From Tribonema minus (Eukaryota > Sar > Xanthophyceae > Tribonematales > Tribonemataceae): a stretch of 64,000 nt of DNA. How positions within the stretch are numbered: position 1 is the stretch's first letter; every line of letters starts with the position of its first letter. Location of the stretch: the NCBI GenBank assembly GCA_017506865.1, contig JAFCMP010000101.1, positions 558,001 to 622,000 of the forward strand, given 5' to 3'. The notes under the pieces are model-generated. The model ran no database searches. It worked only from the letters and a program-made list of their open reading frames with translations, and was not told the origin of the DNA. Shown piece by piece: positions 727-37,366 of the stretch. Both the position numbers and the translations under genes were made by a program.

Positions 727-879
727 CTCTTCATTGAGCTCAGATGCCACTGGATTTGAATGCAGCTGCACCGGTGTCTTCGCTGGCTGCAGCTTCGTCT
801 CCTTTGCCAGCTGCTCTTGCATGCATGCCTCCTGCGCCAAGGCGTCGTGAAGCGCCCATGGAGTTGCGAACTTCCCTGG
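727..879 (-). CDS. gene 3, duplicated exon (copy a)
   Basis: This is a 51-codon, phase 0-0 exon bounded by acceptor TGTGCAG and donor GAG|GTGCGT. It encodes FATPWALHDALAQEACMQEQ followed by a Lys/Pro-rich tail ending ELNEE. The AQEACMQEQLAKE stretch resembles the AEEAAFMRNFAAS helix of the x2 exons in genes 1 and 2, so it may be a further diverged AP2-like piece; that link is inference. It differs from copy b only by substitutions and in-frame indels, which suggests the frame has been kept. Confidence 0.6.
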
Positions 880-1474
880 CTGCACAGTTCAGCCGCATAA
901 AGCAAAGAAGTAGACGGCGTCATACACATATGCCTGTTGCGCAACGGAGGTATCCGAGATGGCACACCACCACTTATGCACGGAGGTCGGAAGTCGCTTG
1001 AATGACGCACCTATGTACAAGGCTTCATTGCATGCTTGCACCAGCAGGCACCTGCAGATCTATAGAACGGAGGTTCAATCATATGATCACATAATAGTTA
1101 TCCATCTCTGAGCTCTCTTTTTGACAAAGACTGACACAAACAGACAGTGGTGTGGCGTACTCTCATGAAGTAAGTTTCGCGAATGCTTCAAGCACAGTGA
1201 GGCCTTGGACTTCACGTACTACAGAACTACTAGCCTACTAGCATTGATTCTGAAGCAGCCTAATCACATACTTGCTTCTGCTGTGAGGCTGCAATGCTAA
1301 CACTCTCGACTGGGAGCAATTCATGTTCCATTCGCTGTTTGCTCACTTCTAGGCTGGTGGCAAAGTTTATTGAGCACTGCAGGTGCCCTTTCATTCCGTG
1401 GCAACGGTCTTGAGAAGCGTCAACATCTAGTACAGTAGTATGTTCATCTTGCCAATGGTCTTAATAATACGCAC

Positions 1475-1636
1475 CTGTTCATTGAGTTCAGAGGCCACTG
1501 CTGGCTTCGAATGCAGCTGCACCGGTGTCTTCGCCAGTGGCAGTTTCGTCTCCTTTGCCAGCTGATTGCACATGTGCATGCATGCCTTCTGCGCCAAAGC
1601 GTCGTGAAGCGCCCATGGAGTTGCGAACATCCTTGG
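1475..1636 (-). CDS. gene 3, duplicated exon (copy b)
   Basis: This is a 54-codon, phase 0-0 exon with acceptor TGTGCAG and donor CAG|GTGCGT. It is the tandem duplicate of the exon at 727-879 and shares FATPWALHDALAQ, LAKETKL, AKTPVQLHS and ASELNE. The three-codon length difference preserves the frame. It would splice in phase to the acidic exon upstream (2288-2497) and to copy a downstream. Confidence 0.6.
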
Positions 1637-2287
1637 CTGCACAGTTCAGATGCATGGAGCAAAGGGACAAAGAGCATCATACACATACGCCTTTGAGGTA
1701 TTGCCTTTGAGGTGTAAACAACCCAAATCCTGCTGACATGGGTTGTTGATGATCACATATCCAGCAGCTGGAAGCAGTTGAAGGTATAGACCATTGAAAC
1801 TGGAGGTGACGTTGGAACTGCAACTTCAAAACGACTTCAGCCCATTGGCAAGTAGCACGGCTGCTTTTGGCAGCTGAACATGCTGCTTCTGAGCCAGTCA
1901 GGCGGTTCTGAAAGCAAGCACCTGAGCATAAGTTTGCATGTTCCACTGGCTGTCAGTGGCACATGAATCACTCACGAGTGTTGCAAGGGTCGTCATGCCC
2001 GCTTCCAGCAGTTTCATAATTCCGCATGATTAAATCATGCGGAACTGTAATTTAGTAGAACACCTCAGAAAGCGTGGACATCATTGTAAGCACTGCAGCA
2101 TCGCTCAGCAGCTGAGCACCACTGAGCGCGCATCAGGCACCATGTGCACGCCCACGTCAACACCGGCAGTACTTCAGGATTTGAGGTCAGCGCAGAGCGG
2201 CATTTTTTTTTGCAGCAAACGAGTTAAGTCTTCCGACTCTTGATCAAATGGCATCGACATGATATATAATGAAACCCTACCAATTAC

Positions 2288-2497
2288 CTCAGATCTGCTG
2301 ATTCCGCTGTCTGGGTCATCAGCGCCCTCGCTGCTAGCTCCGGCGCCATGTGTGTAGCTGCCTTCGAGGTCACTTGCGTAAGCGTCTCCAGGCTCTGCAA
2401 CGGAGCCCGCGTCCATGCCATCAGCTGCAGCATGATCGTCATCAGAAAGGTCCTCCTCAATGTCCGAGCGGATTGACTGATCGGAGTAGTCCTGGTC
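2288..2497 (-). CDS. gene 3, acidic exon
   Basis: This is a 70-codon exon in phase 0-0, acceptor TTACCAG, donor GAG|GTAATT. It encodes an acidic Ser/Asp/Glu-rich stretch beginning DQDYSDQSIRSDIEEDLSDD. The start aligns with the acidic exon of gene 2 at 23414-23575 (VPSDQEIYSDFEDD), which is the main reason to treat this as the N-terminal part of a third paralogue. No catalytic domain is visible. Acidic regions of this kind can act in transcriptional activation, but that is inference. The upstream first exon was not found. Confidence 0.6.
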
Positions 2498-5658: not shown

Positions 5659-5689
5659 TGTTCACTTCAGCTCAGCTCTAAGTTCGCTT

Positions 5690-7297: not shown

Positions 7298-7308
7298 GTA
7301 CATGGTTT

Positions 7309-7400: not shown

Positions 7401-7410
7401 GTACATGTTT

Positions 7411-8486: not shown

Positions 8487-8972
8487 TCAGAGCCCTTCCA
8501 GCTGCTGCTCAACAAGAGTAATGATGCGCTCGGCGAATGCTGCAGGGGCATCAGAAATGCACTGTGCAGGGCTTAACAACTGCAGTGCGCTCTCGCCTCG
8601 GACCTGCATCTCAAGAGCGCGCTGCTGCAGCGCCGCCAACTGGGCCTTGAGCTGCTCGTGATGCACCGGCTGTTGTTGGTTGCGCTGCGGCTGCTGTGAA
8701 GCGCCCGGCATTGCTTGCTGTGTCAGCTGCCGCTCCGCAAGTGTCATCACGTGCATCATGAGTTGGTCTGCTGAGTCATGACCTGACGCAGCTGATGCAG
8801 CAGTGCTCAACAGCTGCAGCGCATTTTTGCCGCGCACCTGGAACTGAAGCGCGCGCCGCTGTAAACCCGCTAGCTGCACATCTGCAGAGGTTGCTGACAC
8901 CAGCTGCTGCTGCTCTTCTTGTGGCTGAGTGTTGTGGCTGAGCTGCATGTGCTGCGTTGTCGTCGCGTCAGG

Positions 8973-9009
<37 letters not shown>

Positions 9010-10181
9010 GACTGATGCTGGTGCGGCTCAACTCCTGCATCCTTCCCAAGCTTCGCGAACTGTGCTAATGTGAGCTTTTGTACCGCCGTCCGTCGGTCCG
9101 GTACCTGCTGCCTTAGGCTATCTCCAGTGTCACAGTGCAGAGCCTCCTCCTGCACGGGCTCTGGTACTGCAGCTGCCTGAACCTAGGATTCAATTTGTCC
9201 TACCGGCTTCTTTGGCATCTGCAAGGACGGTGTGACAGCTTGTGGCTCTGTGCCACTGGGCAGTAGCGGCGATACTGAGGTGTGTTGCTGCACAGCAAGT
9301 GCGTCACGGTGCTGTTCTTCTGATGTGTGCTGTGGTTGTGCCAGGAGAGGGGCTGGTGACATTGGCGTTGTGGCTGCAACTACTAGTACTGATGGCTGAC
9401 TCGGCTGGCGAACAGGGGCAGCTTTCAGGCTGGTCACGTGCTTTGAAGCAGATTTCTCCTTGACTGCAGGTTGGTGCCTCTGCCGTTTGCTGGACAGCAT
9501 TGTACTGTTGGCTGTGTTGGAGGAGAGGGGCGGTTCGTTGTTGTCATCATCGGATGGCTCAGAGTCCAGCACATTGATGACTTCATGCATCGACCCCGTA
9601 GCACCAGGTCCTGCAGCTGCTATGCCACCACTGACGTGGCCGCCATTGCCGCTGGTGCCCTGAAAGTCGCTGGTGGCGTTGGTGCTGGGGGTACGCATGC
9701 TGGCCGTTGTAGTGCCGCTGCTGGAAGAGCGCTTGGCCCCTCTCGTGCGTGAATCTGCTGCGAGCCTATCGCTGGTGCTGCGACCGCTGGCACTGGCAAC
9801 GCTGGCGGGTTTGCAGCAGCTGCTGCTGCTGCTGTTGTGCTTACCGGCAACTGTGCAGTTGCCACTCGGAGTCCTGGTTTGCTTGCCACGGTGAACATCA
9901 TGGTGAAGGCTCCCGCCGCTTTTAGTGCTGCCTGCACCGCTGTTGTAGTCCTGGCGGTGGTGCTCTGAAGCTGCATCATCCAGGTGCTGCTGATGCCTTG
10001 AAGTTCCAGCATCACCGCTGTGGCCCTCGCTGGCAGGGGTAGCTGTGACTGCATGGACAGTCTTTGCTTTTGACACCAGCTGGTGGTAGTGCCTTGCCAT
10101 GTGCTGCTGCATGGTTGCGCTCAATGCTTCCTGCTGTCGGCGGGAGAAGTGCTGCTGCCAGCCCACCTGTGCCCGCTTTGA
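8487..10181 (-). CDS. gene 2 last exon: x3 motif plus Gln-rich C-terminal repeats
   Basis: Acceptor ATGCAG at 10182, then SKRAQVGWQQHFSRRQQEAL, the degenerate counterpart of the x3 start. A Ser/Thr-rich stretch with VINVLDSEPSDDD and a KRQRHQP basic patch follows. The frame is open for 332 codons, meets TAG at 9183-9185, and then continues open in the same frame to TGA at 8487. The second half has a (CAG)n poly-Gln run (about 8980-9007) and two copies of a motif of the form LQxRALxxQVRGxxALQLLS...LxExQL. It ends EQQLEGL, like the gene 1 last exon (EEQLRGL), which argues that the post-TAG part is ancestral coding sequence. Confidence 0.7.
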
Positions 10182-13100
10182 CTGCATGATGCAGGCAACA
10201 GAGCGGCAATGGTATTGTATGATTGAAGTGGATGCACCACAGTGACTTGGAATATTGATCTCAATGAGCCTTTAAGTTAGATATACACTTCGAAGTATCA
10301 AAGTCGCAAGTGTATGGCACACTATGGTAGCCAGATTGTTTGGCAAGTGAATGTTACATGATGAGTTAAGAATACGATGATTGTGTTAATATCGTCAAAA
10401 AGAGGTCGTTGATTCATTGACAAGCTCGGATACTAAATGTGCAATGCTGGTACATGTAGGCCTGGGGGACCCTGCACATTGCATCTTGCAGCATCATGCA
10501 GTTTTATGTGCATTGAGTTATCCAGTTGACATGATATCACTACCAGTGTACCTGCACTTGTGATGCAAAATGTACGGCGTGACGTGGACCGCACCTCATG
10601 CTATGTATATGTATAGTATGCGGTGCACAACTTTATCACTTTGCATCACAATGTACTTCTCAAGTACTACCAGAAAGCGCGCACAAAGTCCCTGTTTGCT
10701 GTTCCATTCAGCGTATGACAGCAAATGTGCTACTGTAACGGCAGTCACACAGTGGGTGTTAGAATTGACAATTTAAAAGTCCAAAGCACATGAGCATAGC
10801 GAACCCGGTCATCATTGCGGGCAAGGCATAATAGACGTCAAGTCTTTGTGGAAGTGAAATCTGTGCACATTCTTCCGCCCACTCAGGTGAGCAGATGTCT
10901 GCAATTAAGCAGCCATGCATACATTAGACCTCTGCACAATAAAAGTCCACCACATCAGGCACTGGGGAGGGGGTCATGTCAGTCATCTGCTGGTTGTTGA
11001 ACTTCGAGTCTGCTGTGACAATAATTTCCTAAAGTACCGGTAACTGACAGGCGCATCAAAAGCATGTACCTACGCTTCCACAACAGCACACATGTAATCA
11101 GCATGTCATTTGCAGACTGGCATCACTAAGGCATCATTTCTCATGGCATTGCATACCTCATCATCTGGGTAGATGGCTTGGACAGCTACCTCTCTCATGT
11201 ATGCCGCTTGCTCTGCGGTCCTGCAGCACGGGGTGCGTAGTTCTGCATGCGGCTCAGGCCCAAATACACCTGGTGGCATGGCTCTGCCGGCACCCAACAT
11301 ATGCGAAGGCCACAGTAAGTGAACAGCACCAGCAGCAGCAAATGTGGCAAGCGTGCGCGCGACAGTAAGGTACAGTGCATGTTCTGCAAACTTCACAATA
11401 CAAGATCCTGCTGAAGGCAGCACAGCTGGACAAATTGCAATACATCGAGCATTTTGAAAAACAGGCGTATTGCTTTTCCTACTGGCTGCCATCTATGGCG
11501 TAGCACTAAAAGTGCGGCACCCAACAACGCAGCAGTAGTTTGACAGCATTAGCAAATGCAGCAAGCGTGCATTGTAATGTAAGTTACTGAATGTCTTTGC
11601 ACACTACAAAACATACGTTCCTCAAAATAGACAGCCAACTGAAGTCAGCGCAGCTTGCGCTGAGCTGTAAAATGCACTGGCCGCCATCTATGCCTGCTTG
11701 CAAGTGCCATGGCGCGCACAGATCGATCTGGCATAAAGTTTGGACCTCTGTTATGCACACCCAGTGGCACATTGACTTCAAACAGCAGCTGTGCTGCTTT
11801 CTGCATAGCATTGCGCATGAAGCTCCTGGCATGCTGTGCTGTTTTCACTGCTGCGTGGGTCATGTGGCCTGCATACTAAAGTGAGCACTTCAGGTAACAT
11901 GAAGTCGAGGCAAGAGTGTCTGCCATTGCAGGGCAAATAAGGGTTGGAACCTGTACTGTCACAAGGTCTCACTGGGACAAATGAGGGCAAGGTAAAAAGT
12001 TACTTAAAAGTATTAAAGCACACTGTACATATCCCTGAGACTGAGTCAGTAAGGCAGCGAGGTACATCAGGCATATATAAAGTTTTTGTTTATTTCGCCC
12101 AGGGCGTGAAAAGTCCAGATGGTGGATGTCCATGGACTTACAACCAGAATTCACACATGTCTTTGTACACCCCTTGGAAGTGTCTCAATGCGCATTGCCG
12201 GTCACTTTTAAACGACATCATATAGTGCACATAGATATAATTCAATGTACATGTACTGCTCGTGTGCCATATGTGCATGCCTACACGTGCCTGCACACAG
12301 GGGTATCTGCAACAACTTCGACTACCGCTTTTGAAAGACTGCATGTTCACAATGACATGGAAGTACGTATGGACTTGTATTTATAAAGGCCCAAGGGAGG
12401 CCGGGTTGCCTATGCAATCGAAAAGCTTGCGTCAACGCAGCAGCCTAGTCTGCGCTGTGCCCTAGGAGCTTGGATACCGGCGCCGCAACACAGCCCAGCA
12501 TTCGCGCTCCACGTGTGTACGCCATAACGCGCTCCGCCAACTCCCGCGCCAGCGATATGCTCAGCTCAATGAGGATCTGACGCTTAGCTAACCCGGCCTT
12601 GCGTAACACATCTGCCTTCCCCCCCCCTGAGCACAGTGCTGAGTGCATTGCCAACTCCTTAACAAAAAGGCTTGTCTGCTTGCCCAGCCGTCCGTACGAC
12701 TCCTGCACGAATGGCACAAAAGCCCAAGATGACGTCAAGGTGCCGGTGTGGTGCTTGACCTTCGCGTCCTCCCCCACCCCAGCAGCATAGCCGTCCGTGT
12801 TCGAGGCATTTGTTCTGCCTGTCAGGTTCGAGCTCGCTGTGGGCGCGCGCACACTTGTGTCTAGCACTATTCCCTTGTTACGGTATGCACTGCTAAAGTG
12901 CAGACACCCTGGGTCAATGACTGTGTCCGCCCGATACCCCGGTACCTTGAAGACGCTAGCGTCCTCATTGCGGACAATAGAGACATGGTGCTGTCTCAAG
13001 ATGCGCTGCAGGCACCGCTTTTGGGCAGTGTGTGTCGCGTTGTGCCCCCGTATGTGCTGGCTGGGGCAGCTGATCGCATGCGTGGAGGTGGGGCTCACAT

Positions 13101-16100
13101 CACTGCACCGCCATGGGCACACCTCGCCCTGTATGCCCCACCCGTCTATGAAGATCGCAATCAAAATCATCGTGGCTGCTGCCATACTGGACATGGGCGC
13201 CGCACCCGGGCGGTCATTGGCAGTGGGTGGCACGCTCATCCACGCCATTGCCCCGGACGCACGCTGGCTGCGCAGCTGCGCCAGGACCCGTGCGCTAGCC
13301 TGTTGGCGGCGGCGGCTGGTGTCGCGCGAGTCACCAATAGGTGCAGCCTGCGTCGGCTTGCCCACGGCACCAGCCGAGGCAGCCTCTAGGTCCTCCACCA
13401 GGCAATCCTCGTATTGACGTCGAAGAACATTTGAAAGGCCGGCTTGTAGTCCGTGCGTGAAGTGACCGCGCCGGCGGCGGGGCACTACCTTCCTGCAGAT
13501 CTCATCAGCATAGGCCTCCCAGTCGTCGTCGTCGTCCTCCTGCCCGCCGCTGCAGCTGCTTTCTTCCGCGCTAGTTTGTGTTTTAGCGGGCGTGGAAGGG
13601 GCAGCCGCGGCAGCGGCTTGAGGGCCAGGTACGGTCGCCGCCGCAGCGGCCGCCTCGGCGCCAGGCACAATGCCGTGGGTGTGTGGGGCTGGCTCAGTGG
13701 TCACTGTCTCCGTGACGGCAGTTGCGGCGTAGATCGCTTGCACCGCAGTGGGGAGCGTCGACGCTGCGGCCGTCGTATCTGCTGCCCACCGTAGCAACGA
13801 TGCTGGGAGCTGCTCGGCCACAGCTGTGCGTGATTTTTCGCCGCCATCAGCTGTCAGCGCTCGCGTAGAGCGTCGCACGGCCTCGATGATTGGCGGCAGT
13901 CCCTGGTCCTCGCGTATTGCGCATGAGTGCTGCGCGAACCAGGTGACTGCGCCGTGTTCGTCAGTGCCGAGCCTCAGGGCCCCTGCTGCCACAGTGGCAT
14001 GAATTATTGCCGGCCTCAGTGTTGTGCATGCCTGGGCCGTGTATGCGGCTGGTGCCAGTAGCCCCAAAAGCGGCATGCCCAGACCGCCTCGTCGCTCCGG
14101 CAACCGTGACGCCCGCAGTGGCACTGCGATGTCCGTGAGTTCTGGCGGGCCCAAGCGCGGCAATACCAGCACGCTGCCACTGCTGGCTTCCTCATTGTCA
14201 CCAGCAGTGCAGGCGGCCAGCAGGTGTGACTTCATGGCTGCCGCGGTAGAGCAGCCGTGCAGATGCAGCATGCGTTCGAGCGTCCATGCACAGAACCCGT
14301 CAAACGCGTGCAACCATGTCTCACTCAAAGCCGTGTCAACGACCCGAGCTAAGAAGCCCATGCGCTTCGTCAGTGACCTGCGTAGAATGAACTGTGCTGC
14401 CTGTAGGTGATGCCGCGCCATTCCAGCTAGCTGCCACGACAATCGCCATGTCCCTGCGTCGACAAGATGCTTGCTCATGGCAGCGTGCACATAGGCTGGG
14501 TGCCCTACCGGTACCCCGACCGATGTAAAGCCCTGACTGGATTCTGGCATGGTGGTGTCCACAAACGGTATGTCAAGGGCGCGCAGGCGTGCTCTGGCCG
14601 CTTCATCAAACACTGTGCCGCGCATGGCGATGGCCAGCGACTTGTCTGGTCGAACGCGTAGGCCCCCTGCCGCCAGCCGGCGGATCACCTCTGCCACCCC
14701 AGCGGCCGCTGCATCGTCGAAGTAGGCAGCTTGCAGCACGTTGAGGTCATCCAGGAAAGCGCAGTGCGGGGCTGGCGGTTCCGCTGTGCTGTGGCCGTAG
14801 GCCGGCATACTGCCGGGCGTCGCATTCACTCCATCAGGGTAGAAGAGTAGGAAGGCCGCTGCCACTGCAAAGTACAGCGGCCCTAGAGGGTCCCCTTGCT
14901 GGCACCCTAGGTGGGAGCAGATAATGCGAGCTTCACCGTTCACCTCCACCCGCATCTCTGGGGCAGTGTCACCACAGTATACGGACTCAAAGTGCGGGAG
15001 CAGCTCCGGACAGAAGAGCATAAGCCCCCGCACAATGGCGGCGCGATCCACACTGTTAAATGCGTTCTCACAGTCCAGTTGGATAGTGGTGCCATACAGC
15101 TCGTGCCACACGCGCGCGCGCGCTGCCACATGCTCGACGCCAGACCGGTATCCTACGCCAAACTGCGACATGGAGGCCAGCAGCCCCGATATCTTGCCCT
15201 TGACACTCCGTGCCGCTGTGGACCCGAGGAGTCTGCGCCAGACACTGGAGCAGGCGATCGGACGCCGCTTCTGTCCTATGCCTGAGAGGGCCGCGGCGCG
15301 GAGAAGCCGTTGCGATTGCTCCGGCAGCAGTTCGGGCTCAACAAGCAGCGTCGTGAACACCTTGGCCAGGTGATGAGCGAATGCCGGTTCCATCACATCT
15401 GATTCTGAATCACCAGCTAGTCCTGGCGAGGCACTGCTCACGGGGCGGGTGGCTGCTTTCACTGGTGCACCAGGCCCAGCGGCCATCAAGAGGTGTTCAT
15501 AGCGTAGGCCGTCCAGCCCTCCTGCCTTCCCCGCCCCTGCTGCGGACAAGGTCGACAGTATGTCTGCCGCCTCCACCTCGAGGCGCCGTCCGGCTGCGCT
15601 GGCAGCATCCTCAGGCCTATCGCTGTGATCATGTGCCTGACCCGATTCGAAGACAGGACTGCCGCTGCCAGCTGGCCCGGTGGTCGTTGCCACCCCTGCG
15701 CTGTGTAAGCAGTGCCGCCGGGCGTCGCGTACCAGGCCGCGCACTTGCTCCATTGGCGTATCGACTACCCCCGGCCGGGTGCCAGTTTCAGGGTGCTTTG
15801 CTGCCAGCACCTGTGCCGTGACCTCGTCTGCTGGGGCGCATGCTTCACGCGCCTCTAGTCGTGCGGCAGCCAAGCCTACCCCCCGTCGCTTGCCTGAGAG
15901 GGCAGCGCATGCTGTTTGCTGCCTGGAGTCAGCCTCCGTCCAGTCGGCATCGAAGTTCGTTTGTGCCGACGCCATAGCTGCGTTGTTTGGTTTGGGGGCC
16001 CGCAGCGCCGCTGCTGCTGACAGCGTCTTTCTCAGTAGCTCCGCGAAGTCGCCAGACAGCAACGCTGCCAGCCGGGCCGCAGGCGGCATACCGGTTCCCT

Positions 16101-19100: not shown

Positions 19101-22100
19101 AGGGTTAACAGCAGCTAAAAGGTATGGGCAAAAGGCAGCTTGTTGCTGAACCGGCGTGTGAAAGCGTCTGCAGCATGCACTTGTTTTCAAAGACCTTCAG
19201 CATGGACGTTCAAGTGCTTGCATTACACCAGAGCTTGCGCGGATGATACTGTGCAATAGAGTGGAAGCCACGGGTGGAAGCACAGATTAAAATATGAGTA
19301 CACATCAGGACCATTATCAAATGAACGCATCGATTGATTGCCTTTGAAACCATTTCGACGACCAGTCTCATGTTGTCGCTTCCTTCTCGTAAGACCCGTT
19401 CTGCCAGTTTGCGCCGTGAATCCAAGCGTGCATTCTAAACCGCGTTCTGTACAGCGCCCTAGATTTCACATACGTGGCCAACGCGACGTCACTCGCAGCG
19501 CTAGCGACCAGCGCAGGTACAGCCCTTCAGCACACCGCTCGTGGCGCAGGCAGCAGCGGCGCGGTATCTAGTAGTCATGGCGCAGCACAGCCACTCTCGC
19601 CATAGGTGGGCGTGCTGAGTGACACACGGTCAGCGACCCTCATCACCAGCTGGGCGATGTCTGATTGGCTGGTTTCAAAGTTTGAAGTTCCTATTCATTC
19701 ACTTAACTGTTCTTCACAGCCCTCCAAAGGGCGCTGTGAATGCATCTGCAATATGCCACAACATTTGCGTGTTTTTCATCCATGTTTACGCAAAAAGCCT
19801 CAGCGCAGAACGGCCCTAATGCATTAACACTGATCAGACCTTGATGAATCAAAAACGCAAACAAACAGCTCACGCTATTGGTACTTGCTGACCCGCACAT
19901 TCGAGCCAGGTTTTCACAGGTGATGTGCATACTCAGGGTTCACGCCGCCTGCACTGGACTTCACAGACAATCTCATGAGGCAGACATTAGCAAGGGTTGC
20001 GCAGGTTGGGGAACGACATGCAGAGGTCATGTCCAATCAGCTGTTGTGGATGTTGGTCCTTCAAGAATCCACTCCTTAGATGATGCTCTGCTATAGTATA
20101 CATAGAGCGCACAGAGGCGTTGACATTGTAGGCACCGAAAAGCAACAAATTGAATGTTGATTGTGCTTCGCTGGTAAAATGGCGACATTTAGAAGCTGGC
20201 CTGGCTGCGCAGTGGCCGCATGATTGTCAGTAAATGTGCTTCAAGTGTGCAGCCGTCAGCATGCTGCGTAAGTTCAGAACGCAAGCAACTGCTCCCTTCG
20301 CAACTTGAAGCTGCAACTCACCCTTCGCGTATGGGGACTTGACCGTAGTACATCTCCCCGTGAAGAAGTACTCCACACAACCCTGATTTGCCAGGACCGC
20401 GGCCATGACGACGCTTAATGTGTTGACCCCGAGGTTGCGTGGATGCTACTGCAGGGCAGCGAGCACCTGCCTGAGCACTGCTGGTCTTGATGCTGCTTCG
20501 GTTTCCCTGCATGCACAGCAGAGCCAACGAATGCCACATGAAGATACAAACGAAAATTATGATGCTGCCAGTAAGCAGTGCGAGCAGGCAATTGCAAAGT
20601 TATTGCCAACAGCCCGACGTGACCATTCAAGCGGCAGGCATCTAAGAAGAACAAAAAGCAGCGGTTTTGCTATGGCCCAGGCTTCTGAACACCAAATAAC
20701 GTCATATGCTCTGAGCTCAGCCGTCTTCAACGCTTTCGACAGTAGTGTGCATGTTGCTTCAAGCCTCAATCGGTTCACAGACACGCGTTACCGGTCCATG
20801 TAGGAACGCAGTGGACCGCTGCATGTGCTGATACTTTTGAGTGCCCACATTTGCGTGTATCCGGTACGTATGGACTTGTATTTATAAAGGCCCAAGGGAG
20901 GCCGGGTTGCCTATGCAATCGAAAAGCTTGCGTCAACGCAGCAGCCTAGTCTGCGCTGTGCCCTAGGAGCTTGGATACCGGCGCCGCAACACAGCCCAGC
21001 ATTCGCGCTCCACGTGTGTACGCCATGACGCGCTCCGCCAACTCCCGCGCCAGCGATATGCTCAGCTCAATGAGGATCTGACGCTTAGCTAACCCGGCCT
21101 TGCGTAACACATCTGCCTTCCCCCCCCCTGAGCACAGTGCTGAGTGCATTGCCAACTCCTTAACAAAAAGGCTTGTCTGCTTGCCCAGCCGTCCGTACGA
21201 CTCCTGCACGAATGGCACAAAAGCCCAAGATGACGTCAAGGTGCCGGTGTGGTGCTTGACCTTCGCGTCCTCCCCCACCCCAGCAGCATAGCCGTCCGTG
21301 TTCGAGGCATTTGTTTTGCCTGTCAGGTACGAGCTCGCTGTGGGCGCGCGCACACTTGTGTCTAGCACTATTCCCTTGTTACGGTATGCACTGCTAAAGT
21401 GCAGACACCCTGGGTCAATGACTGTGTCCGCCCGATACCCCGGTACCTTGAAGACGCTAGCGTCCTCATTGCGGACAATAGAGACATGGTGCTGTCTCAA
21501 GATGCGCTGCAGGCACCGCTTTTGGGCAGTGTGTGTCGCGTTGTGCCCCCGTATGTGCTGGCTGGGGCAGCTGATCGCATGCGTGGAGGTGGGGCTCACA
21601 TCACTGCACCGCCATGGGCACACCTCGCCCTGTATGCCCCACCCGTCTATGAAGATCGCAATCAAAATCATCGTGGCTGCTGCCATACTGGACATGGGCG
21701 CCGCACCCGGGCGGTCATTGGCAGTGGGTGGCACGCTCATCCACGCCATTGCCCCGGACGCACGCTGGCTGCGCAGCTGCGCCAGGACCCGTGCGCTAGC
21801 CTGTTGGCGGCGGCGGCTGGTGTCGCGCGAGTCACCAATAGGTGCAGCCTGCGTCGGCTTGCCCACGGCACCAGCCGAGGCAGCCTCTAGGTCCTCCACC
21901 AGGCAATCCTCGTATTGACGTCGAAGAACATTTGAAAGGCCGGCTTGTAGTCCGTGCGTGAAGTGACCGCGCCGGCGGCGGGGCACTACCTTCCTGCAGA
22001 TCTCGTCAGCATAGGCCTCCCAGTCGTCGTCGTCGTCCTCCTGCCCGCCGCTGCAGCTGCTTTCTTCCGCGCTAGTTTGTGTTTTAGCGGGCGTGGAAGG

Positions 22101-26774: not shown

Positions 26775-27519
26775 TCAGAGTCCACGCAGCTGCTCCTCGA
26801 CAAGAGCCACCAGGCGCTGCGTAAACCCTTCAGGTGCAGTGATGCACTGATCGGGGCTCAACAGCTGGAGCGCACTCACCGCGCAGCTGCAGCTCCAGAG
26901 CGCGCCGCTGCAGCGCCAAAAGCTGTGCCTTAAGCTGCTCGCGTGACGCCGGCTGCTGCTGCTGAGCAGCGTCCTGTTGCTGCTGCGCTGGCTCCAGCAA
27001 TGTTTGTTTGGTAAGTTGCTGCTGCACCAAGCCCATGACGCGCGCCATAAACGCATCGGATTCCGACTCAGCAGCGCTCAGAAGCTGGAGAGCGCTCTCG
27101 CTGCATGCCTGTGCCTGCCGTGCGCGTCGCTGTAGGTCTGCAATGTGCAGGTCCGTCAGTGCCGCGCTGTCTGCCATACGCGGGTTGCCCTCGTCCTGCT
27201 GCGATGCAACCTCCACCTCCTGGTCGCGCCAAGTGCGTGCAGTTGCAGGCTGCTCTGCTGCAGCTCCAGCCTCAGCATCCACAGCTGCCCGTCTCTGGCG
27301 TTTACGAGGGGATGCCACAGGTGCGGAGGCGCCGGGGTGGCCACCTTCACTACGGTCGCTACCATCTGACAAATGCACAGCTGTGTTGGTGCCCTCATTA
27401 GCTGTGCCGATAAGTGCCTCCAGATCCATTGCATAGATCCTCTCAGTCATCGCCCTGCGCATTGCTGCTTCCTGCTCTGGAGAGAACTGAAGCCTGCCTG
27501 AGGTGGCTGTTTGCTTCGC
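26775..27519 (-). CDS. gene 1 last exon: x3 motif plus C-terminal repeats, frame-broken
   Basis: Acceptor TGTGCAG, then AKQTATSGRLQFSPEQEAAM (x3 type). A basic patch SPRKRQRRA and two ALQLLS repeats follow. In the second repeat the reading frame breaks at about 26884, where the sequence reads CGCGGTGAGTGCGC: the first frame runs to a stop at 26830, while the expected continuation SALQLLSPDQCIT...LVEEQLRGL is in another frame and ends at 26775. Compared with gene 2, this looks like loss of two bases. The same spot is also a good-looking 5' splice site (GGTGAGT), so an alternative end cannot be excluded. Confidence 0.65.
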
Positions 27520-30500
27520 CTGCACAGCAATGCAACAAGCAGAGAGGACTTTGAAAGGTCAGCGATGCACATTGAGGCAAGGAGCGTGTCTAATTGCACA
27601 TGTCATTGAATTTTCAGAAGTTCATTGGGAGTGCGAGGGCTTGTGTGACCACACCAACATATTGTGGAGCATGCATCTTAACTTGCACCACACCAAATTT
27701 CTACGAGCCCAAGCAGAAAACAGCCACCGTGAAATGAGTTGTGTTGGTTCTTCAGCTTTTGCCTGGACAACGCATAGATGCTAGTTCTGAGGTGTAAGCT
27801 AGTAGCTACCGAGACCAAGCAAGCAAAGCACCTTGCAACATGCACCTGAACATGCACTCACAGGAGTAGGAACATGCACTGGCATTACAACTGCCAGCAA
27901 GTACGTGTCTGTACATTGGACATTTATGCAGTGCAAGCAATGATGCAGTGATCGGTGAGATGGTTCAGGCACATGCTTAATCATTATGAAGGGGTGACGA
28001 GACGTAGATATTAGCTGCCTTACTCTAGCCAGCGCACAGTCTACTGAGCAGTGCACTTGGAGTGAGGTGGAAGATGCTCACTGAACATGTTTAGCAATTC
28101 GTTGTGCTGCTTCAAGTATATAGGTGTGCTCATTGAAATCGTGTTGCATCCATACATAGTGAACGCCAACCTCGACACCAGGGTGGACTCCTCGGAGGGC
28201 AGCAGCTGCCAATTTCTGCATGAATGCTGCCTCCTGCACCTCCTTGCACGCCGGGTTGTTCACCTGCGTCCGTGTGCCGCTGCGTGATATGACATGCGTG
28301 GCAATGGTGGCAGCGGCAGTGGTGCATTACCGTCACTGCCATATGTGAAATACCGTCACTGCCATATGTGAAATACTGGTGGCAACACCGGCATATTGTT
28401 CGGAAACAAAATGGTGTGTGCTTGGTTGTTAAAATCAGCAAGGGCGCTCATGGACTGGCATGATCGAGCTTGCCACATCAGCAACCACTCGGTGCACCAA
28501 CTGTAGGGTTGGTATGGCAGTCATGGGGCGACTTCAGTTAGGTCACTGCTGACACAATTGCCACTTAACAATTGCCACATAACAATGACACAATTGCCAC
28601 TTAACAAAATTGTTGGTGTTTGAAAGCCTGCATGTGTGATGGCCCCATGGTAGGACAATGCAAGCTTGGTATGCGCTACCTACAGCACTACATCATCAAC
28701 CAGTGGATTATTTTCCAATCACTGCAGCTGCGTGTCACGTGTAGGGTCAGCACTAATGCTACTTCAAGTCAGGTTGTACTTAAATGTTAGCTTGTTGCAA
28801 GCGGGCGACACAAGGAGGGCACACAGCAATGATAAGTGAGCACTGGTGTGATCTGTAATGCAGAGCATGCTAAGGTCATGGAAGTTTCTTGCCGTCCAGG
28901 GCGTATCTGGCATCCTTCAAGTTGTTTGCATCTCAGCATGAGCACTAGTAGTATGGCGATTGCGCCTTTTGTGAGTGGACTTTTGCATGCTCACCCAATA
29001 GTGCTGTTCTCGCGGTCGTTGTACGTGCTGCCCCCATTGTCTTGAGTTTTGTTGCCATGCAGGCGCCGTGTCAGGTTGCACTGGTTTTTGTTGCTGTTGT
29101 CGTTGTTGTGACTGTCTGGTCCGGGAGTTGCCGCTGCCGCTGCCGCCGCCGCCGCTGCTGCTGCTGCTGCCTCCTCAGCAGACACAACCTCGTCTCGTGT
29201 GTCGTCATGACCTCCGTTATTGTTCTGCAGCACAAGGTGTATGCATGCAACGCGGTATTGGCAGATGACCTCTGGTGCAGACGAAATATCGGGCTTCGTC
29301 GTGTTCCTTGGTGACGAAATAGCGGGCTTCCTTGTGTTCTTTGATGTGCAAAGCTCCATATCCCCGTGCGCCTTGCGTTTAGGTTGCTTTTGTGGGATAG
29401 ATCGCATGCCGTCTTACTTTGCACCATTGCTGCTGCCACTCAAGGGCCATCAAGACCATCACTTCTTCTTGTCAATACCAACAAAGGATGGCGCTCATTT
29501 GCCAAGCACCAGGAAACTCAGGCGACATATAATCTGCAGAAAGAAGGAAGTAGCTGGAAAATGATCAAATTGTGCGTGCACACCGCAAAGCATTCCTGGC
29601 ACAACAAGTGACCGGCAGTAATGGCTCACAACAAGTGACCGGCAGTAATGGCTAGCACCAAGTGTAGAGGAGGAAAATACATCGATGGCTCTGGCCGTAC
29701 TCGCCAGTGTATCTGTCCAGGTGACAGGTTGTCACAGCGGCGGCGGTTTTGGCAGTCAAAGTGCCACTGCTGACATTACTTAAATGAGTCATCATCATCT
29801 GATGATTCATGATTCCTGGACCTCCGGCCAGCATTAGACCAGTGCACTGCAGCTGCGTTTACAGGTGATAGAGCGCTTGATTGTCGTCCACTTTCCACAA
29901 CCTATTTAGAGCAAACTGCACAAACATACCTCACCAGTTTATGGCACTATCTACTGCAAATTTCAAACTCATAATGGTACTGTCCAGCCATTAATGAAAG
30001 GTTACAGTACTATGACGTCTTCAAGCAGCCCCTATCTGCATTGCTCAAGCAGTCAATTTACCAAGTGCTGCAGGCGTTCAGTTGACAATCTTGCTATTCA
30101 GTACCTGGTGATCAGACACGTCAGCCAGCACATCCAACCCCAGCAAAGCAAACTTAGCGGCCATACTCTTGCGCATGGCATCCTGTGGCTCTGGAGAGAA
30201 GGCCGCCATCCCACCTGGAACAACGGTCAGCTTTGCCTGCATGGCAAACACCAAGCACCAAAGGGATGATGAAGGGGTAAGCACATTGACAACAGGCATG
30301 CATGAGCCGCAGTAGATGAAAAGAGCGAGGATTAGTTGAATCTGCATATGCAGCAGCAGCGTTTGAGCACCTAGTAGACTCTGCTAACTGAAATGATGCA
30401 CAACTAATCTGCATATGCAGCAGCAGTGTTTAGGCATCTAGTAGACTCTGGTAACTGAAATGATATTGCATATGCGGTTCAGCTGTTGACGTGTAAAGTG

Positions 30501-33500
30501 GCACTGAAGCCTCTGATACTATCTTGAGCGCATTTTCTGCTTGCACAGTCCTGTGTTGCTACTGCACGACAAACTTCATAAGCTTATGCTTCCTTGCATT
30601 GAATGCGCTTACCGATAATTGCATCCCATAGCAGGCCAGTGCAGGCATTAATTGCAGATACACGTATGTGCATAGATCGAAGTGTACTATACTGCCTGCA
30701 AGTACAGCATGCAATTGAATGAGCCTCCACAAAATACTGAAATCACCTATGCAACCATACAGCTTTCAAAAGCTGGTAGAATTCATTTTATTCCTCCGTC
30801 TACAAATTGCTGAGGTCTAATTTCACTCAGCAGGATCTGCCAATCACCAAGTGCCACTCCAGCTGCTTGCCATGACTCACGCTGAACATGGATTTTCAAG
30901 CTGACAGGCAGAATAAATACTTCAACATTCATAAACCTGCACTTCAGTAGAGATACAGGCGTCACCGACACGCCGTTGACACTACTTGCCAGCCACCAGA
31001 CAGCCTTTGGCTGCGTGCAGTGCTGACAGCCATTGTACAGAACGCACATGACAAGAGATGGCGCAAACCGGCCATCACGGCCCACATGCGCACTTACATC
31101 ACATGTTACTGGACACACATGTCATAAGCGCACGCACGCAGAGAGTCACCAGCAAAGACACAAGACACTTATCGTAACATCATGTAAGGGCAATACATGC
31201 TGACGTAGGTGAGTGACAGGTGCCTTGCTCCAACAGTGGCACTTGAAGCATCCTATTATTCTTCTGGCGCAGCACCGGAGTGCAGGTTTCAAAATGCACT
31301 CTTGTGGATGTGGAGCACACTTTCACATGCTGGCCTCAAACCGACATATACGTGCACTGCGAGATGCTGTTTGCTCATAGTACATGACTGTACATGCCAG
31401 GTGCGTGTGCTGCCATTCTCCGTTCAATTCTGCGCAACAGCGTTGGTCACAATCTCAGGAAGGAAAGTTGGTGGTCACAAATGAATGGTCTGACCTGATC
31501 ACCCGGGAAGAGAATTGAAGCCGCAAAGTTCCTCATGAATGCTGCCTCCTCTGCAGTGCTGCACTTTGGTGTATCGATTGCCCTGCAGTGCACAACCAGC
31601 CGCAATGGAGAAATGGCTGACATTGGACATGAAGGGTGGCAGTGACAATGGCAGCAGCATCGCCTTACTGCAAAGACATCACCTCAGGCGACACCTGTAA
31701 GATAATCGAGCTCATGTCGATGACATAGTTATTCAGTGCCTTGGCAGACTGAGTGCAGTGGCATCAGCAACGGTGGCTGCTGCAGGCCATGAGGCAATGA
31801 GGTCAGGTCAGACGTACTCAGCATTGGCAGTAATTATTGATATTGTCCAGCATCACAGTGCCATCACACAAAAATGTACTTCAGTACAAGTCATTATGAT
31901 TTGTCATGGTTTGAAGTGCTCAGGACTATGCAATCATAAGAGATCAATGATGCTATACTCATCTACTGCTGGACAAGCATGGCATAGGACATCTGCTGCA
32001 TTGCCTGCAAAACTGCAAGCATCAATTGGTTCACTTCGAACGCATCGGCTTCAAAGGGAGCGAACATACATCCTGCAACGCCTTCATGTGCTCACGGTTG
32101 AGTGCAGACGCACTCACTGCTTGCTGTCATTGTAGAGAAGCCGGCCTCTCCACGCATTCGCGGACAAACGCTGCACGCCATAAAGCCGCTGCTCAGATGG
32201 CGGCTCGATGTGAGCCCTTTTCTTGCCATGGCGTTCAGTGGGTGCTGCAGACGGCGCAGTAGATGTTGCTTTGGCAGCAGTCGTGGTGACTCTCCGTGGC
32301 TTGCGAGAAACATTGGCGCCAGCCTGCAAACGCGTTGCACACACAGTGAAGCTGAGGTTATGGGAGCGCATAGTCAGGCGCGCAGCACTGTAAATAGCCC
32401 AAGGGCCGCCAAACATCATGAGTCATCATGGATTGACAACAAGACGCCAGCGCTGAGTGATTTAAGAGGCTCAGTTTGTGGCGATGCTGCGGCTCAACCA
32501 GCATCCGGATTGCGTTGCATCAAGGGGAGGCGGCCAGCATCTTGTCAACATGATACAGCAGATGCTCACTCTCAATGTAGCACAGCGCTATTGAGCCAGC
32601 ATTGACAGGTTGCTAGGTACCTGGCACCATCTGTTGAGTGTCAACGCAGCAAGAGGTGCATGTGTGCTCGCAGGCACCACATGGGAGCAGTATGCATGCT
32701 GCACTTGAACTACCGTAGCATTTCGGGCTCAATACCACAGGACGAATCAGTAGTATGTATGGCGACAAAGGGGGGGGGGGGGGGGGGGCTCGGATGCAAG
32801 GTATCAGGGCGTAACCCCATGCAATGAGTGATTGCAGTAAGTGGTATTGGGGGGGGGGGAAAGAGGGGAGCTGACTCACAATATGCATTTGCAGTTTGTC
32901 AGTGAAGTACATTATGCGCACGTACTTGCAAAACAGGCAAGGCCTGATTGAAGTGGAAGTGTGTGAGCACATATACACGCCCACAATACCACTGGACCAT
33001 TAATTATGTTACATTATCAGTGTATGGAGTCATTGTGAATCTGACAAGGAAACTACAATTCAGGCGCAAAAGTGGATAAATTCGGCCTACCTCTCAGGAG
33101 GCATTGGTGCATACATGCTGTACTGCAAAAGGACTGTGCGCCTTTCAGCTATTACGTTCTTTCAGCCTTGTTTTGCCAATACTGCAGATTAGGCATGCGC
33201 ATGCTAGTGCATGCTAGTGCATGCTTTGAGTGAGGGTGTGCGCTGTGGCGTGGTTTGTTGGAATGTCAACAACAGCAACATGATGTCATGCCGCGGCACA
33301 AATGTTTATGCCGGTGGACGTGATGTCATGCCGCGGCACAAACGTTCATGCCTGTGGCCTGCGGCACAAGCGGTATTCATATTTGCTATGTGTTGAACGT
33401 GCTTCTTGGCAGGAGGAGATTACCAGAAACTGGCGTCAAAGCGTGCTGCCAAGTGATACGCGGCGAGAAAAATGTCCTGCAGCCAGTGCCCTGAAGTATG

Positions 33501-36500
33501 GATTATTGTTCACTACATCAGTCCCCGCACATTACGGCGTGCTGGCCAGGCATAATGCTTGGTCATGACAATGTGTATCCCGCTTCTCAACAGGCCCTTG
33601 TTTGCGCAGACTCCTGATGACTGTAATAGAAATCGCCCAGCACTTGAAGTCCACTTGCACCAGCACGCGAACACATGACCTAAGACATTGTATACTCAAG
33701 CAGACTTGGGGTTCTCTCTACCACTATAGTACGCATGTGGACACACCTGAGCAGTAGATGATGCGGCCGCTGTTGCTGCAGGCGCTGGGCGCAGATCATC
33801 ATCCTGTTCGAGCTTTTGCATCATGGTGGTGCGCATCGTGGCTTCTTGCTCTGGTGTGAAGTGAAAGCCTCCAGGAACCGTGGTGAGCTTCGACTGCAGA
33901 GGAGAATCACACCAGCCATGTGCGCGCTACAGAAATCAAAGGCTGTCAAGGGTGCAGAGCAGAGATTATTACAAGATTACCCTGACAAGGAAATGACCAC
34001 AAAGGCTCTAGAAGTACTACTTTCTACTACTTTCATTCTTACACAATTGAGAAATTGAGCCCACTGCAGACAAACGATGCGCCTCCTCGCTCAACCGCAC
34101 GCGCAATATTGCAGCTGTGGCGAGCATAGTCACCGGTCTTTCACGAATTATTGCTTAGTATCAATAGTAATCAGAGAATATAACGCAGACATAATACAGC
34201 AGATTCATCACGCTGAATGGGACTTTGCGCATGAAACCACAGTCAATGCACTTTGGTCAGTGCATGCTAGCATCACGAGCCTTTGATGGTGAAACCAAGA
34301 TGCTTTGACATCGACATCATTTCCATCAAATGCAGTAGACTATATAAATGAGCGTGGCGCCCATGTGCCGCACTCAACACGGTCTTTTGCTAGTGCTCAA
34401 TTGCATGTCCGGTTTCAAAGATTTGCTGCCGAATTCAAAGTTCGGTGCTGAAATCCTTTAGTGCACATTCCTGATAGGATGCATCTGCTCGGGTGCAACG
34501 CACAAGAGGCCGTGACAGTGAATGATATTGAAGCTACTTGGAAGTGACATGTTCATAGACCTGCTGAAAGCCACAGTGCATGTATTCTAGTCAGCCACCA
34601 AGGCTGCGCGTACCTCATTGCCGGGGAAGTGGAATGCGGCAGCAATGTTCCTCATGAATGCTGCCTGCTGCAAAGTTTTGCATGTCGGAGTGCGTACGTA
34701 GCCGTGTGTGCCCCTGTGATGACAGAAGAACCAGCAGCAGTTGTAGCGGTTTGCATGCTTTGAAAGTGCCATGCGGCACACACACGCCAATTCAATTTGC
34801 AACTCAATAGTAACTTCAGACTCCAGAGTATGCACATGCGCAGACTGCTCTCCATGCAAATGGTTCAAACTCAACACCATGGCATCGATGCTGCTTTTGG
34901 CATATCCACTTCCATGTTCCCCACGCTGGGCAACTGCATTACCAGTGTGGCCGCCTGATGTGTGTTTGCGAAAAAAAAACTTGCTCCTGGCCTACCTGGC
35001 TTGCCAAGTACAGCAGCCCCAGGTACTGGTGTTGCCCGCACCTTGCTGCAGTTGCAAGTCATCAGTGTTTTTTTTTGGCGTGTACCATCTCATGGAAATA
35101 GTTTGTTTAACATTGACTGCAACATCCAGAAAGTGCAGTGGTCCCCAATTTGATGTGATCATCAAGAGGGCCTTGCATAGAGTCCGTGTTGAAGTGCAGC
35201 GCAATTTTATTAAACCACATCACATTGACAGAGAATGAAATTTCGGTCTGGCTACACATAACGCTTTGTCACCGGAGGCAGCGAGCCTCAATTTCGCATA
35301 ATGAACTACAACCTGTGCAAATGCTAGACTAGAGCTTAATATACTTGACACACAACATGAGCGTAATGCAGCAGTCAGGGCATGATGACTGGAGGTTGAG
35401 GGGCAGCCTGGAATGTCACCATGACTTTGTGTGCTTCAGCCAAGAAAGATCAACTTCGAGGTATATGCTCTCTATTCACTGTATGTTGGAGCATATGGCA
35501 GTTACATGCTCATTGCCGTTTGCACGCTTGACGGTTACGGCAGTTACACTTGGCGGCAGACAGACTACAATACATTCACTTCTAGCAGCTTACGACTGGC
35601 GTCGGTCTTCTGTTACCTTGATGCCTAGCTCTGCTGGTGTGGTGCAACAGAGTAGTGAGCTGCAGCTCTCTACGTTGCAACACTGTACAATCCGCTCCCA
35701 GCAACTTGCCAGGTACGCATCCTTGAGAGCACAATGACTGCACTCAGTCGACATGATCATCAATGATTATGGTATGGTCAAGTCTCCGCTGTATTTGAGC
35801 CTCTGAAACGCCTAGCGTGTTTGCTCTTCCCAGTGCGTCGCAGCTCAAACGACGCAGCTTGTCCACCGTGCAACTCTTACACGTACTTGCAGCTGCCACG
35901 TGGCTGACTCCATTTCACTTGCTCTATCCAAAAGGGTTTTACAGTGCACTCACCCTGGTCGCTGGATGCACAACCTGCCGATGAATGAGTCGTGTGCAGT
36001 CTGCGAGACGTCATACACTCCTGTTTTAGACTCATTACTTCCCGCTGTCCGGCTTTCTTCTTGATCACAAACAGGGTTTGGTGCTGCAGCTGGTGCAGGT
36101 CGGGCAGGGGGCGGCAGGCTGCTCACTGCATCGTCCAAGGAGGTTGCCTGCAAATGCGGCGCAGCCACAGAGTACAACATTGCAAATGGGCCAGCATGCG
36201 TGGGCTTTTTGCCTTCAATCTTGAGAGGCTTGCAAGCAACACTCAGCACTCAGGCATCATGCGCCTGAAGCTACCTCCTAGTTTAACGTACCTGGCACCT
36301 CAAGCAGAAACGGGTACGCTGAAACAAAGCATGACGCCGACAAAATGTCAACAATTGCGGTGAGCAATTGTTCAGCGAAAGGCTTGTTTTTCAGAGTCAG
36401 ACTGAGCTGCAGATAGTGCACTTTACGCAACCCATCTGTGCGTGATGGTAGCCGCATTGACACAACAACATTTATCATGCACATGTCGCCGCTGTGGAAT

Positions 36501-37366
36501 CAAACCATACATAGCGTGAGATAAAACAGCTGTGATCTCAGCAAAAGTGCTGATTCAGCGGACAGACACAGCTGTGAATGCTCCGCGGCAGCACTATTTT
36601 GGGTGTCACAGCAGACGAATGTATTGCATTTTCATGCACCAGAGCTATCGTAGTGCAGAATCCCTGGACTCATGCAACAGCGTGTCGGTTCGAGTTTTGC
36701 AGCTCAAACGGTGGTCTGTAGCCCCCCAAACAATCGAGGGATGCCTTAAGCGAACCGCCTGTGATGTGAGCCTGTCACACACACAAAGTTTTCAATGGTA
36801 CAGAACTTTGATGGGGGATGTCCCTCAACTAGAAATTTCAAGTCTGGACAACAGTTAGGGCAGGCGGCCTCCTGGGAGTAAATGGTCAGCTACTGCACTG
36901 TGGCTGCATGCATCACAGACATGAATGCTACCCTGAGTCTCAGCACCCGCTGGATGCCATGAGCGCAGTGGTGGGTATTTCATGAACCCGGCGACATTAT
37001 ATTTCTTCCCCCCGTTTGAGCTGCCAAAAGTCTTGCATCGCGAATATCCAGCAGAACCGATGCTCAAAGAATAAACGGTGCACACCAGTGTGGCATTTGT
37101 AAGACGTTGTACAAGTCATGTCGACGCTGTCCACATGTTGATTTGTGCAGCAGCACATGTATGTGTTGTTTCAAATGCAGGTCCAGTGTTCCCCTGAGCT
37201 GTAAAGCGCTAGTACGTACCACATCATCTTCCTCCTCATCAGCCTGCATGATGTGCAGTCGTGCCGCTGGCTGCGTGTTCTTGTGTCGTGTGTATGTGAG
37301 CTCCGTTGTCACACTTCGACAAATGCAGGCTGTGACGACATCCCCGGCTCTACTACGCTCCAACAC
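26775..37366 (-). CDS. gene 1: multi-module AP2-like protein (exon-intron gene)
   Basis: Minus-strand exons assigned: 37366-37220 (possible N-terminal exon), 36147-35954 (x1), 34713-34614 (x2), 33893-33747 (x3), 32323-32118 (x1), 31582-31495 (x2), 30236-30105 (x3), about 29400-28995 (x1), 28279-28171 (x2) and 27519-26775 (x3 plus C-terminus). From 36147 on the phases fit throughout in the repeating pattern 0-2, 1-0, 0-0. This yields three divergent AP2/ERF-like domains, each followed by a VPGGFxFTPEQEAxMR motif. AP2 assignment rests on the STAEEAAFMRNFAA and Gxx[AS]KLT positions and a YGV...AWRGRL start; canonical RAYD is replaced by FMRN, so DNA binding may differ or be lost. The last exon has a frame break near 26884. 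It ends about 3.2 kb upstream of gene 2, head-to-tail. Confidence 0.65.
28171..28279 (-). CDS. gene 1, x2 exon (module 3)
   Basis: 109-bp exon, phase 1-0, acceptor CACGCAG, donor GAG|GTTGGC. It encodes GTRTQVNNPACKEVQEAAFM then QKLAAAALRGVHPGVE. It aligns with the module 1 exon (GTHGYVRTPTCKT...). Confidence 0.72.
28328..28377. repeat. tandem duplication, 23 bp x2
   Basis: TACCGTCACTGCCATATGTG occurs twice back to back in the intron upstream of the x2 exon. Confidence 0.9.
28548..28612. repeat. short tandem repeats
   Basis: ACACAATTGCCACTTAACAA occurs twice with a shorter CAATTGCCACATAACAA between. Confidence 0.85.
28995..29400 (-). CDS. gene 1, x1 exon (module 3), Ala-rich
   Basis: Donor AGC ACT ATT GG|GTGAGC leaves the same 2-nt phase as other x1 exons and fits the x2 exon at 28279. 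The exon contains PKRKAHGD, matching the KKRAH/KRRHG patch, then two short AISSPRNT / DISSAPEV repeats and a run of 15 Ala. The AP2-like GV...W start is poorly conserved here (RRLHGNKTQDNGGSTYND). The 5' limit is uncertain; possible acceptors lie at 29360-29400. Confidence 0.5.
29599..29653. repeat. tandem duplication, 27 bp x2
   Basis: CACAACAAGTGACCGGCAGT then AATGGCT, twice in direct succession. Confidence 0.92.
30105..30236 (-). CDS. gene 1, x3 exon (module 2)
   Basis: 44-codon exon, phase 0-0, acceptor GCCATGCAG, donor CAG|GTACTG. It encodes AKLTVVPGGMAAFSPEPQDA then MRKSMAAKFALLGLD. Confidence 0.78.
30331..30470. repeat. tandem duplication, about 70 bp x2
   Basis: AATCTGCATATGCAGCAGCA begins both units and CTAGTAGACTCTG then TAACTGAAATGAT ends both. 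Confidence 0.9.
30783..31118 (-). other. unexplained 111-codon ORF inside a gene 1 intron
   Basis: An ATG-to-stop frame with varied composition (for example WLASSVNGVSVTPVSLLKCR and GVALGDWQILLSEIRPQQF) lies between the x2 (31495) and x3 (30236) exons. It has no recognised domain and is not needed to keep phase between its neighbours. It could be chance, an alternative exon or a decayed element. Confidence 0.25.
31495..31582 (-). CDS. gene 1, x2 exon (module 2)
   Basis: 88-bp exon, phase 1-0, acceptor CACTGCAG, donor CAG|GTCAGA. It encodes AIDTPKCSTAEEAAFMRNFA then ASILFPGDQ. This is the best AP2-like helix of the set: STAEEAA at the canonical position and a Gly before the conserved [A]KLT of the next exon. 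Confidence 0.8.
32118..32323 (-). CDS. gene 1, x1 exon (module 2)
   Basis: 206-bp exon, phase 0-2, acceptor TTTGCAG, donor GCA|GTGAGT. It encodes AGANVSRKPRRV..., the basic patch HGKKRAHIEPP, then LYGVQRLSANAWRGRLLYND. YGV...AWRGRL is the closest match in the window to the YRGVR...GKWVAEI start of an AP2 domain and retains the Trp. Confidence 0.8.
32770..32788 (+). repeat. poly-G run (19 G)
   Basis: A homopolymer in an intron of gene 1, followed by a second run of about 10 G near 32850. Length may be unreliable in the assembly. Confidence 0.9.
33277..33352. repeat. tandem duplication, about 40 bp x2, with palindrome
   Basis: GATGTCATGCCGCGGCACAA occurs at 33281 and 33321, each followed by AYGTTYATGCC. 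TGCCGCGGCA is a perfect 10-bp palindrome. Confidence 0.9.
33747..33893 (-). CDS. gene 1, x3 exon (module 1)
   Basis: 49-codon exon, phase 0-0, acceptor CTCTGCAG, donor CAG|GTGTGT. It encodes SKLTTVPGGFHFTPEQEATM then RTTMMQKLEQDDDL. It is the clearest representative of the x3 motif. Confidence 0.8.
34614..34713 (-). CDS. gene 1, x2 exon (module 1)
   Basis: 100-bp exon, phase 1-0, acceptor ATCACAG, donor GAG|GTACGC. It encodes GTHGYVRTPTCKTLQQAAFM then RNIAAAFHFPGNE. Confidence 0.8.
35954..36147 (-). CDS. gene 1, x1 exon (module 1)
   Basis: 194-bp exon, phase 0-2, acceptor TTTGCAG, donor AGG|GTGAGT. It encodes an Ala/Pro-rich start, then TGVYDVSQTAHDSFIGRLCI. The GVYDV...SFIGRL part is the AP2-like start. 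Unlike the other x1 exons it lacks the KRRHG basic patch. Confidence 0.72.
36295..36484 (-). other. possible exon of gene 1
   Basis: The minus strand reads VHYLQLSLTLKNKPFAEQLL then TAIVDILSASCFVSAYPFLL up to a possible donor CCAG|GTACGT at about 36290. Composition looks coding, but the phase (1) does not fit the exon at 36147 directly, so another exon or a different gene would be needed. Confidence 0.3.
37220..37366 (-). CDS. gene 1, possible N-terminal exon
   Basis: 49-codon, phase 0-0 exon between acceptor TTGGCAG and donor GTG|GTACGT. It encodes VLERSRAGDVVTACICRSVT and ends with an acidic MQADEEEDDV. The acidic end recalls the acidic exons of genes 2 and 3, but there is no clear alignment. 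Upstream of the acceptor the frame stays open to an ATG at 37408, so it could also be a first exon starting there. Confidence 0.45.

Follow-up and report, generated by a model that had tools for sequence, protein, structure and literature searches.

The 64,000-nucleotide stretch of DNA analyzed here (the window) is C101:558001-622000, that is, positions 558,001 to 622,000 of contig JAFCMP010000101.1 from the yellow-green alga Tribonema minus (Xanthophyceae). Its minus strand carries part of an array of genes built from a repeated three-exon module, which reads like a divergent AP2/ERF domain. The array had been picked out in an earlier note made from the sequence alone.

Organization of the Modules

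The five three-exon units that had been described on the minus strand are all present, with GT-AG ends throughout. Exon x1 has phase 0-2, x2 phase 2-0 and x3 phase 0-0; the phase of 1-0 originally given for x2 is the identical split, counted from the start of the exon. The module is thus 0-0 as a whole, so that in-frame duplication is possible. In units a, b and c of gene A, the length of x1 is 2 mod 3 and that of x2 is 1 mod 3, while x3 is 0 mod 3 in a and b, where it is internal; in c it is the final exon. The same phase scheme holds for units d and e, as read by eye. Fourteen of the 15 exon starts first listed hold, the exception being x1 of unit c, for which a transcript relative showed a start at 29224 instead of 29.4k. 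Three genes had been claimed for the window; two of these, A (modules a, b, c) and B (d, e), are multi-module genes, and the third is represented by an apparent first exon only (unit E). The exons are as follows, all on the minus strand:

37220..37249, minus: gene A first exon, coding part (MQADEEEDDV); the relative P0004 begins MQADQEEDDA
35954..36147, minus: module a x1, phase 0-2; from gene A splicing
34614..34713, minus: module a x2 (TPTCKTLQQAAFMRN); splicing and profile
33747..33893, minus: module a x3; splicing and profile
32118..32323, minus: module b x1 (YGV...AWRGRL); splicing; its P0004 counterpart is AlphaFold model 2
31495..31582, minus: module b x2 (CSTAEEAAFMRNFAA); splicing and profile
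30105..30236, minus: module b x3; splicing and profile
28995..29224, minus: module c x1, corrected start, degenerate strand motif; transcript relative
28171..28279, minus: module c x2; splicing and profile
26775..27519, minus: module c x3 and gene A C-terminal tail; splicing and transcript relative
20322..20506, minus: gene B module d x1; ends by eye
18878..18971, minus: module d x2; profile
17645..17773, minus: module d x3; profile
16401..16621, minus: module e x1; ends by eye
11157..11283, minus: module e x2; profile
8487..10181, minus: module e x3 and gene B C-terminal tail; in-frame TAG at 9183-9185
2285..2497, minus: unit E acidic first-exon stretch; tblastn expectation value (E) of 2e-12 to the N-termini of P0003 and P0006

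The gene A tail contains the cluster KRQRR and two LQRRAL...SALQLLS repeats, seen by self-match. There was a weak hint (E 0.93) of a first exon for gene B near 23569-23534.

Extent of the Array

When modules a and b were searched against the 158.18 Mb T. minus assembly, more same-strand matches appeared left of the window, and the array reaches left to about C101:528k. The 53 kb left of the window were joined to it, and the resulting 117 kb were searched with an iterated profile. Twelve x2 exons came up at E values of 2e-15 or lower, ahead of a next match at 0.13, and 11 x3 exons at 3e-14 or lower, ahead of one at 0.54; by then, the profile included its own members. The x1 exons were located by phase and motif. 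Used as a query, x2 of unit b picked up the four remaining x2 exons in the window at E 6e-9 to 1e-4, ahead of a next match at 0.31. At the level of sequence, a chance resemblance between the units is excluded by the x2 and iterated-profile searches.

In total, 12 modules were detected in five same-strand units spanning ≈65 kb: A (a, b, c), B (d, e), E (f), C (g, h, i) and D (j, k, l). The sole detected module of unit E, f, is outside the window, immediately to its left; its x2 runs into a copy of a long interspersed nuclear element (LINE), and its x3 was not found by profile search of the 117 kb sequence. Judged by pairwise identities of 52% (g-j), 70% (h-k), 68% (i-l) and 61% (f-j), C and D resemble duplicates of a single gene with three modules, and E resembles a broken one. 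A tree of 11 modules, from which the truncated f was left out, was mostly unresolved, with strong support for h and k alone. The ratio of nonsynonymous to synonymous substitution rates (dN/dS) between genes C and D was 0.39-0.52 in four comparisons, and by this measure the two copies are constrained, if not tightly. A lost splice donor suspected in module k was dropped; a phase-2 GT donor is present.

Transcripts and Gene Models

Five assembled transcripts in EukProt, P0001 and P0003-P0006, are spliced relatives of the array genes, and four of them carry the Trinity cluster name DN811. One protein search passed two of 3163 candidates, including P0001, and another passed these five of 7996. P0004 (656 amino acids) covers the whole of gene A. 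When the exons of gene A were joined as far as the frame change, 558 of 623 aligned residues agreed with P0004, and all nine gene A junctions fall within ungapped blocks of the alignment. The junctions proposed from the sequence are preserved in the spliced relatives.

P0003 and P0001 match gene D; gene C is matched by P0005 and by the opening part of P0006. The later exons of P0006 are slightly nearer to D than to C, and its assignment to C is therefore based on its first 281 residues. Since the x1 part of P0001 is in a different frame from x1 of gene D, it was trimmed for model 2 to begin inside strand 2. No transcripts of gene B or unit E were found among the matches listed. When 289 amino acids of gene A were used as the query, none of 7995 candidates matched with E up to 10, although the database does contain relatives, which may have been displaced by low-complexity words. 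The public model of gene C (P0002, T. minus JKP88DRAFT_244054) omits the x2 exon of module i, so that the diagnostic helix is absent from it, which may be one reason why the domain went unnoticed.

Relationship to the AP2 Fold

The reading of the units as a divergent AP2/ERF domain is supported by both predicted fold and profile. Two AlphaFold models were searched with Foldseek against 350,542 PDB chains, and both placed solved AP2 domains first; these filled the top six places with one model and the top seven with the other. The predicted module matches plant AP2/ERF domains at 2.1-2.2 Å over 58-59 residues. The predicted models contain the three-stranded antiparallel sheet packed on one helix; in model 1, strands 2 and 3 and the helix are seen, and strand 1 falls within a low-confidence stretch. 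Consistent with this fold, hhalign paired the modules with AP2 in the right register and above every column-shuffled control (0/200, 0/200 and 0/300 controls scored as high). The phage domains used were eight, from 19 loci less three near-duplicates and eight with domains under 40 amino acids.

Several results qualify the assignment. Against the five plant domains alone, the hhalign margin was small (20.5 compared to a shuffle maximum of 19.1). PF00847, the Pfam family that the earlier note had proposed as a check, did not match above its cut-off in any of the 12 modules, five transcripts or two spliced relatives. An AP2 profile scored single modules no better than shuffled decoys, and Pfam scans of single modules gave nothing. 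(A DUF4218 match in the acidic repeats of P0006 was set aside as sub-threshold, at 20.3 bits compared to a cut-off of 27.) Because the modules lie outside PF00847 as modelled, they are filed as AP2-fold relatives, not as AP2/ERF members.

For comparison of individual residues, AtERF1 numbering was carried over by hand from the structural match to 14 rows. The framework is kept: G148 in 12 of the 14, an aromatic residue at 157 in 13, and A182, A183 and A189 in all. Elsewhere, G174 is replaced by P and F176 by C, each in 13 rows, turning WLG into TPxC, and the helix AYD has become MRN. The contrast between RAYD and FMRN that had been pointed out is well seen, with R for Y186 in 13 rows and N for D187 in 12. 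The YRG and RAYD elements and the WLG motif are absent from the modules in these 14 rows. At each of ten positions that we take to be the base and backbone contacts of AtERF1, at most two of the 14 rows carry the AtERF1 residue, and position 147 is a gap in ten. Across the 12 modules, the net charge of the sheet segment runs from −1 to +7, most being mildly basic; that of AtERF1 is +5.

Ordinary and Intermediate AP2 Genes

Scattered x2-like exons with the donor in the same place occur on C70, C445, C423, C513 and C16, although that on C16 was weak in a single-sequence search (E 2.0). An x3-like exon follows downstream on C16 (E 0.0048), C423 (0.16) and C513 (6.8); among these, only that on C16 beats chance on its own. 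On C445 and C423, there is also an x1 exon ending GG|GTGAG in phase 2. The joined exons read PYMGV..AWVAQLHVGK..GCGNLSLPRCDSPEEAAYMRN on C445 and PYLGV..AWYAQLFVGK..GCGTLYLPRGETAEEAAYMRN on C423. Judged by these translations, the two relatives are intermediate, nearer to ordinary AP2 than the array modules are.

PF00847 gave no matches at E 0.001 across the whole genome and three weak ones at E up to 10. A protein query from one of the weak loci led to more AP2 genes; thus, a blank from the family search does not prove that such genes are absent. Two ordinary AP2 genes that were scanned gave PF00847 E values of 3.5e-7 (C103) and 2.9e-6, both under the cut-off. In contrast to the modules, the ordinary T. 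minus genes keep YRGV (C103, C146 and C101:873k) and LGTF or LGVF. Like the modules, the C103 gene has a phase-2 intron in the turn between strands 2 and 3; in C103 it splits a glycine codon. That on C246 has an apparently phase-1 intron nearby, and those on C146 and at C101:873k have no intron in the domain. The domains at C101:873484-873651 and C146:509391-509558 are near-identical (YRGV, LGVF), and one of them lies ≈280 kb from the array.

Retroelements and Other Features of the Window

Two copies of the LINE-type element lie in the region of gene B:

12448..16206, minus: LINE-type retroelement open reading frame (RVT_1), inside the module e x1-x2 intron
20864..22344, minus: shorter copy of that element, 99.7% identical, upstream of module d

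The 117 kb contain five copies in all, four of them shorter, and these are 94.6-100% identical to the one at 12201-16400 in the window. The further copies are at C101:508298-509170, 550238-550385 and 555990-556637, and one starts within x2 of module f. The tail of gene A changes frame near 26870, where its relative P0004 runs on. This frame change and the gene B TAG (9183-9185) could each reflect an allele, an assembly error or decay.

The plus-strand stretches 45958-46080 (LKKRVCEQVVSRDV) and 61751-61873 (LKERVCEQVVSRDV) resemble each other, which points to a repeat in the window's right part. Stop-free frames are found on the minus strand at 39585-43892 (1436 codons) and 45301-49503 (1401 codons), in a zone that is largely 70-74% G+C.

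Discussion

Beyond the exon anatomy, the splicing in a relative, the predicted fold, the profile likeness, the intermediates and the constraint on two copies, all established by computation, we consider it probable that the array encodes nuclear proteins with serial AP2-fold modules, most likely DNA-binding regulators. This suggests that a family of gene regulators has been overlooked, its heavily altered AP2 domain being missed by standard domain searches. The repeat unit would be a divergent AP2-fold domain on three exons, which supply a three-stranded sheet and a helix, followed by a second helix. Genes with three modules (A, C, D) or with two (B) may have arisen as recombination within introns copied the phase-0 module in frame, after which duplication of entire genes would have produced the five-unit cluster. 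A nuclear location is suggested by the KRQRR cluster, which is present in the tails of P0001, P0004 and P0005. The N-termini are acidic (residues 1-100 include 20 acidic ones in P0003 and 28 in P0006) and are possibly activating, and the C-terminal repeat may dimerize. The serial sheets would bind nucleic acid, most likely DNA, with a specificity that presumably differs from that of the GCC-box binders, since the known contact residues are gone.

The main alternative, which we regard as unlikely but serious, is that the AP2 fold has been repurposed and the modules no longer read DNA, serving instead as scaffolds that bind RNA or protein. The change of nearly all presumed DNA-contact positions around a conserved fold core would fit this explanation, and the first structural match after the plant AP2 domains is a chain from the Toxoplasma mitoribosome, which may or may not be one of its AP2 proteins. 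In one study, four proteins of that mitoribosome with ApiAP2-like domains are described as mainly scaffolds for rRNA contacts (PMC11742926). On the other hand, the KRQRR clusters and acidic N-termini look nuclear, and similar serial sheets would be suited to reading composite sites. That the module is an independent small α/β domain resembling AP2 by chance is very improbable: the two models agree, AP2 domains alone come first among the 350,542 chains searched, none of 700 shuffles in three tests reached the profile scores, and intermediates and a shared intron phase are found in the T. minus genome. Slightly less credible still is a decaying pseudogene cluster with little present function. 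The frame change in gene A, the in-frame TAG in gene B, the run of unit E into a LINE copy and the presence of five such copies in 117 kb could all be taken as signs of decay, but the compared module and tail exons of C and D are open, with the dN/dS given above, and there are transcripts of A, C and D relatives from elsewhere.

A bolder proposal can be made, which we hold tentatively, at somewhat less than even likelihood. The TPxC-MRN domain would be a separate, hitherto unrecognized AP2-derived class of nucleic-acid-binding domain in yellow-green algae, perhaps in stramenopiles more widely, with a contact surface of its own. In-frame module duplication would have expanded it into triple readers of long composite sites, while single-module ancestors survive in the genome. 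The cluster itself offers a clear example of how a domain of DNA-binding type has multiplied, one exon after another, without loss of phase. With dispersed intermediates still present in the genome, the route from ordinary AP2 to the altered domain can be followed and tested.

AP2 proteins are known in stramenopiles, according to two sources (PMC4827209, PMC12629598), and a survey table in the former lists two AP2/ERF proteins for Phaeodactylum and four for Nannochloropsis gaditana. If AP2 domains invisible to the profile are common in stramenopile algae, such counts are too low. The statement that no described family has this multi-module layout was not contradicted in the literature searched, the coverage of which was far from exhaustive. 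Within that coverage, and partly among the matches listed, no description of this domain form, layout or genes was found.

We know of no phase-symmetric three-exon array in the ApiAP2 proteins of Apicomplexa or in AP2-derived mitoribosomal proteins. The searches made found no sequence link to ApiAP2, and none was sought beyond these. These proteins likewise include AP2 domains expanded within one lineage, some of them with a non-canonical use (PMC11742926).

The likeness to plant AP2/ERF domains (PF00847; AtERF1, TEM1, WRI1) is closer in detail: the order of three strands and a helix is shared, as are the G-V of strand 1, the aromatic residue of strand 2, the T-A-E-E-A-A start of the helix and the alanines beyond it. 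The modules differ in their replaced contact residues and in the third exon, which adds a second helix. Members of the plant AP2 subfamily, such as WRI1, have two AP2 domains, and the array proteins likewise contain more than one AP2-fold domain each. They differ from that subfamily in that each module, of which A, C and D have three and B has two, is spread over three exons, and in having linkers and a conserved C-terminal repeat.
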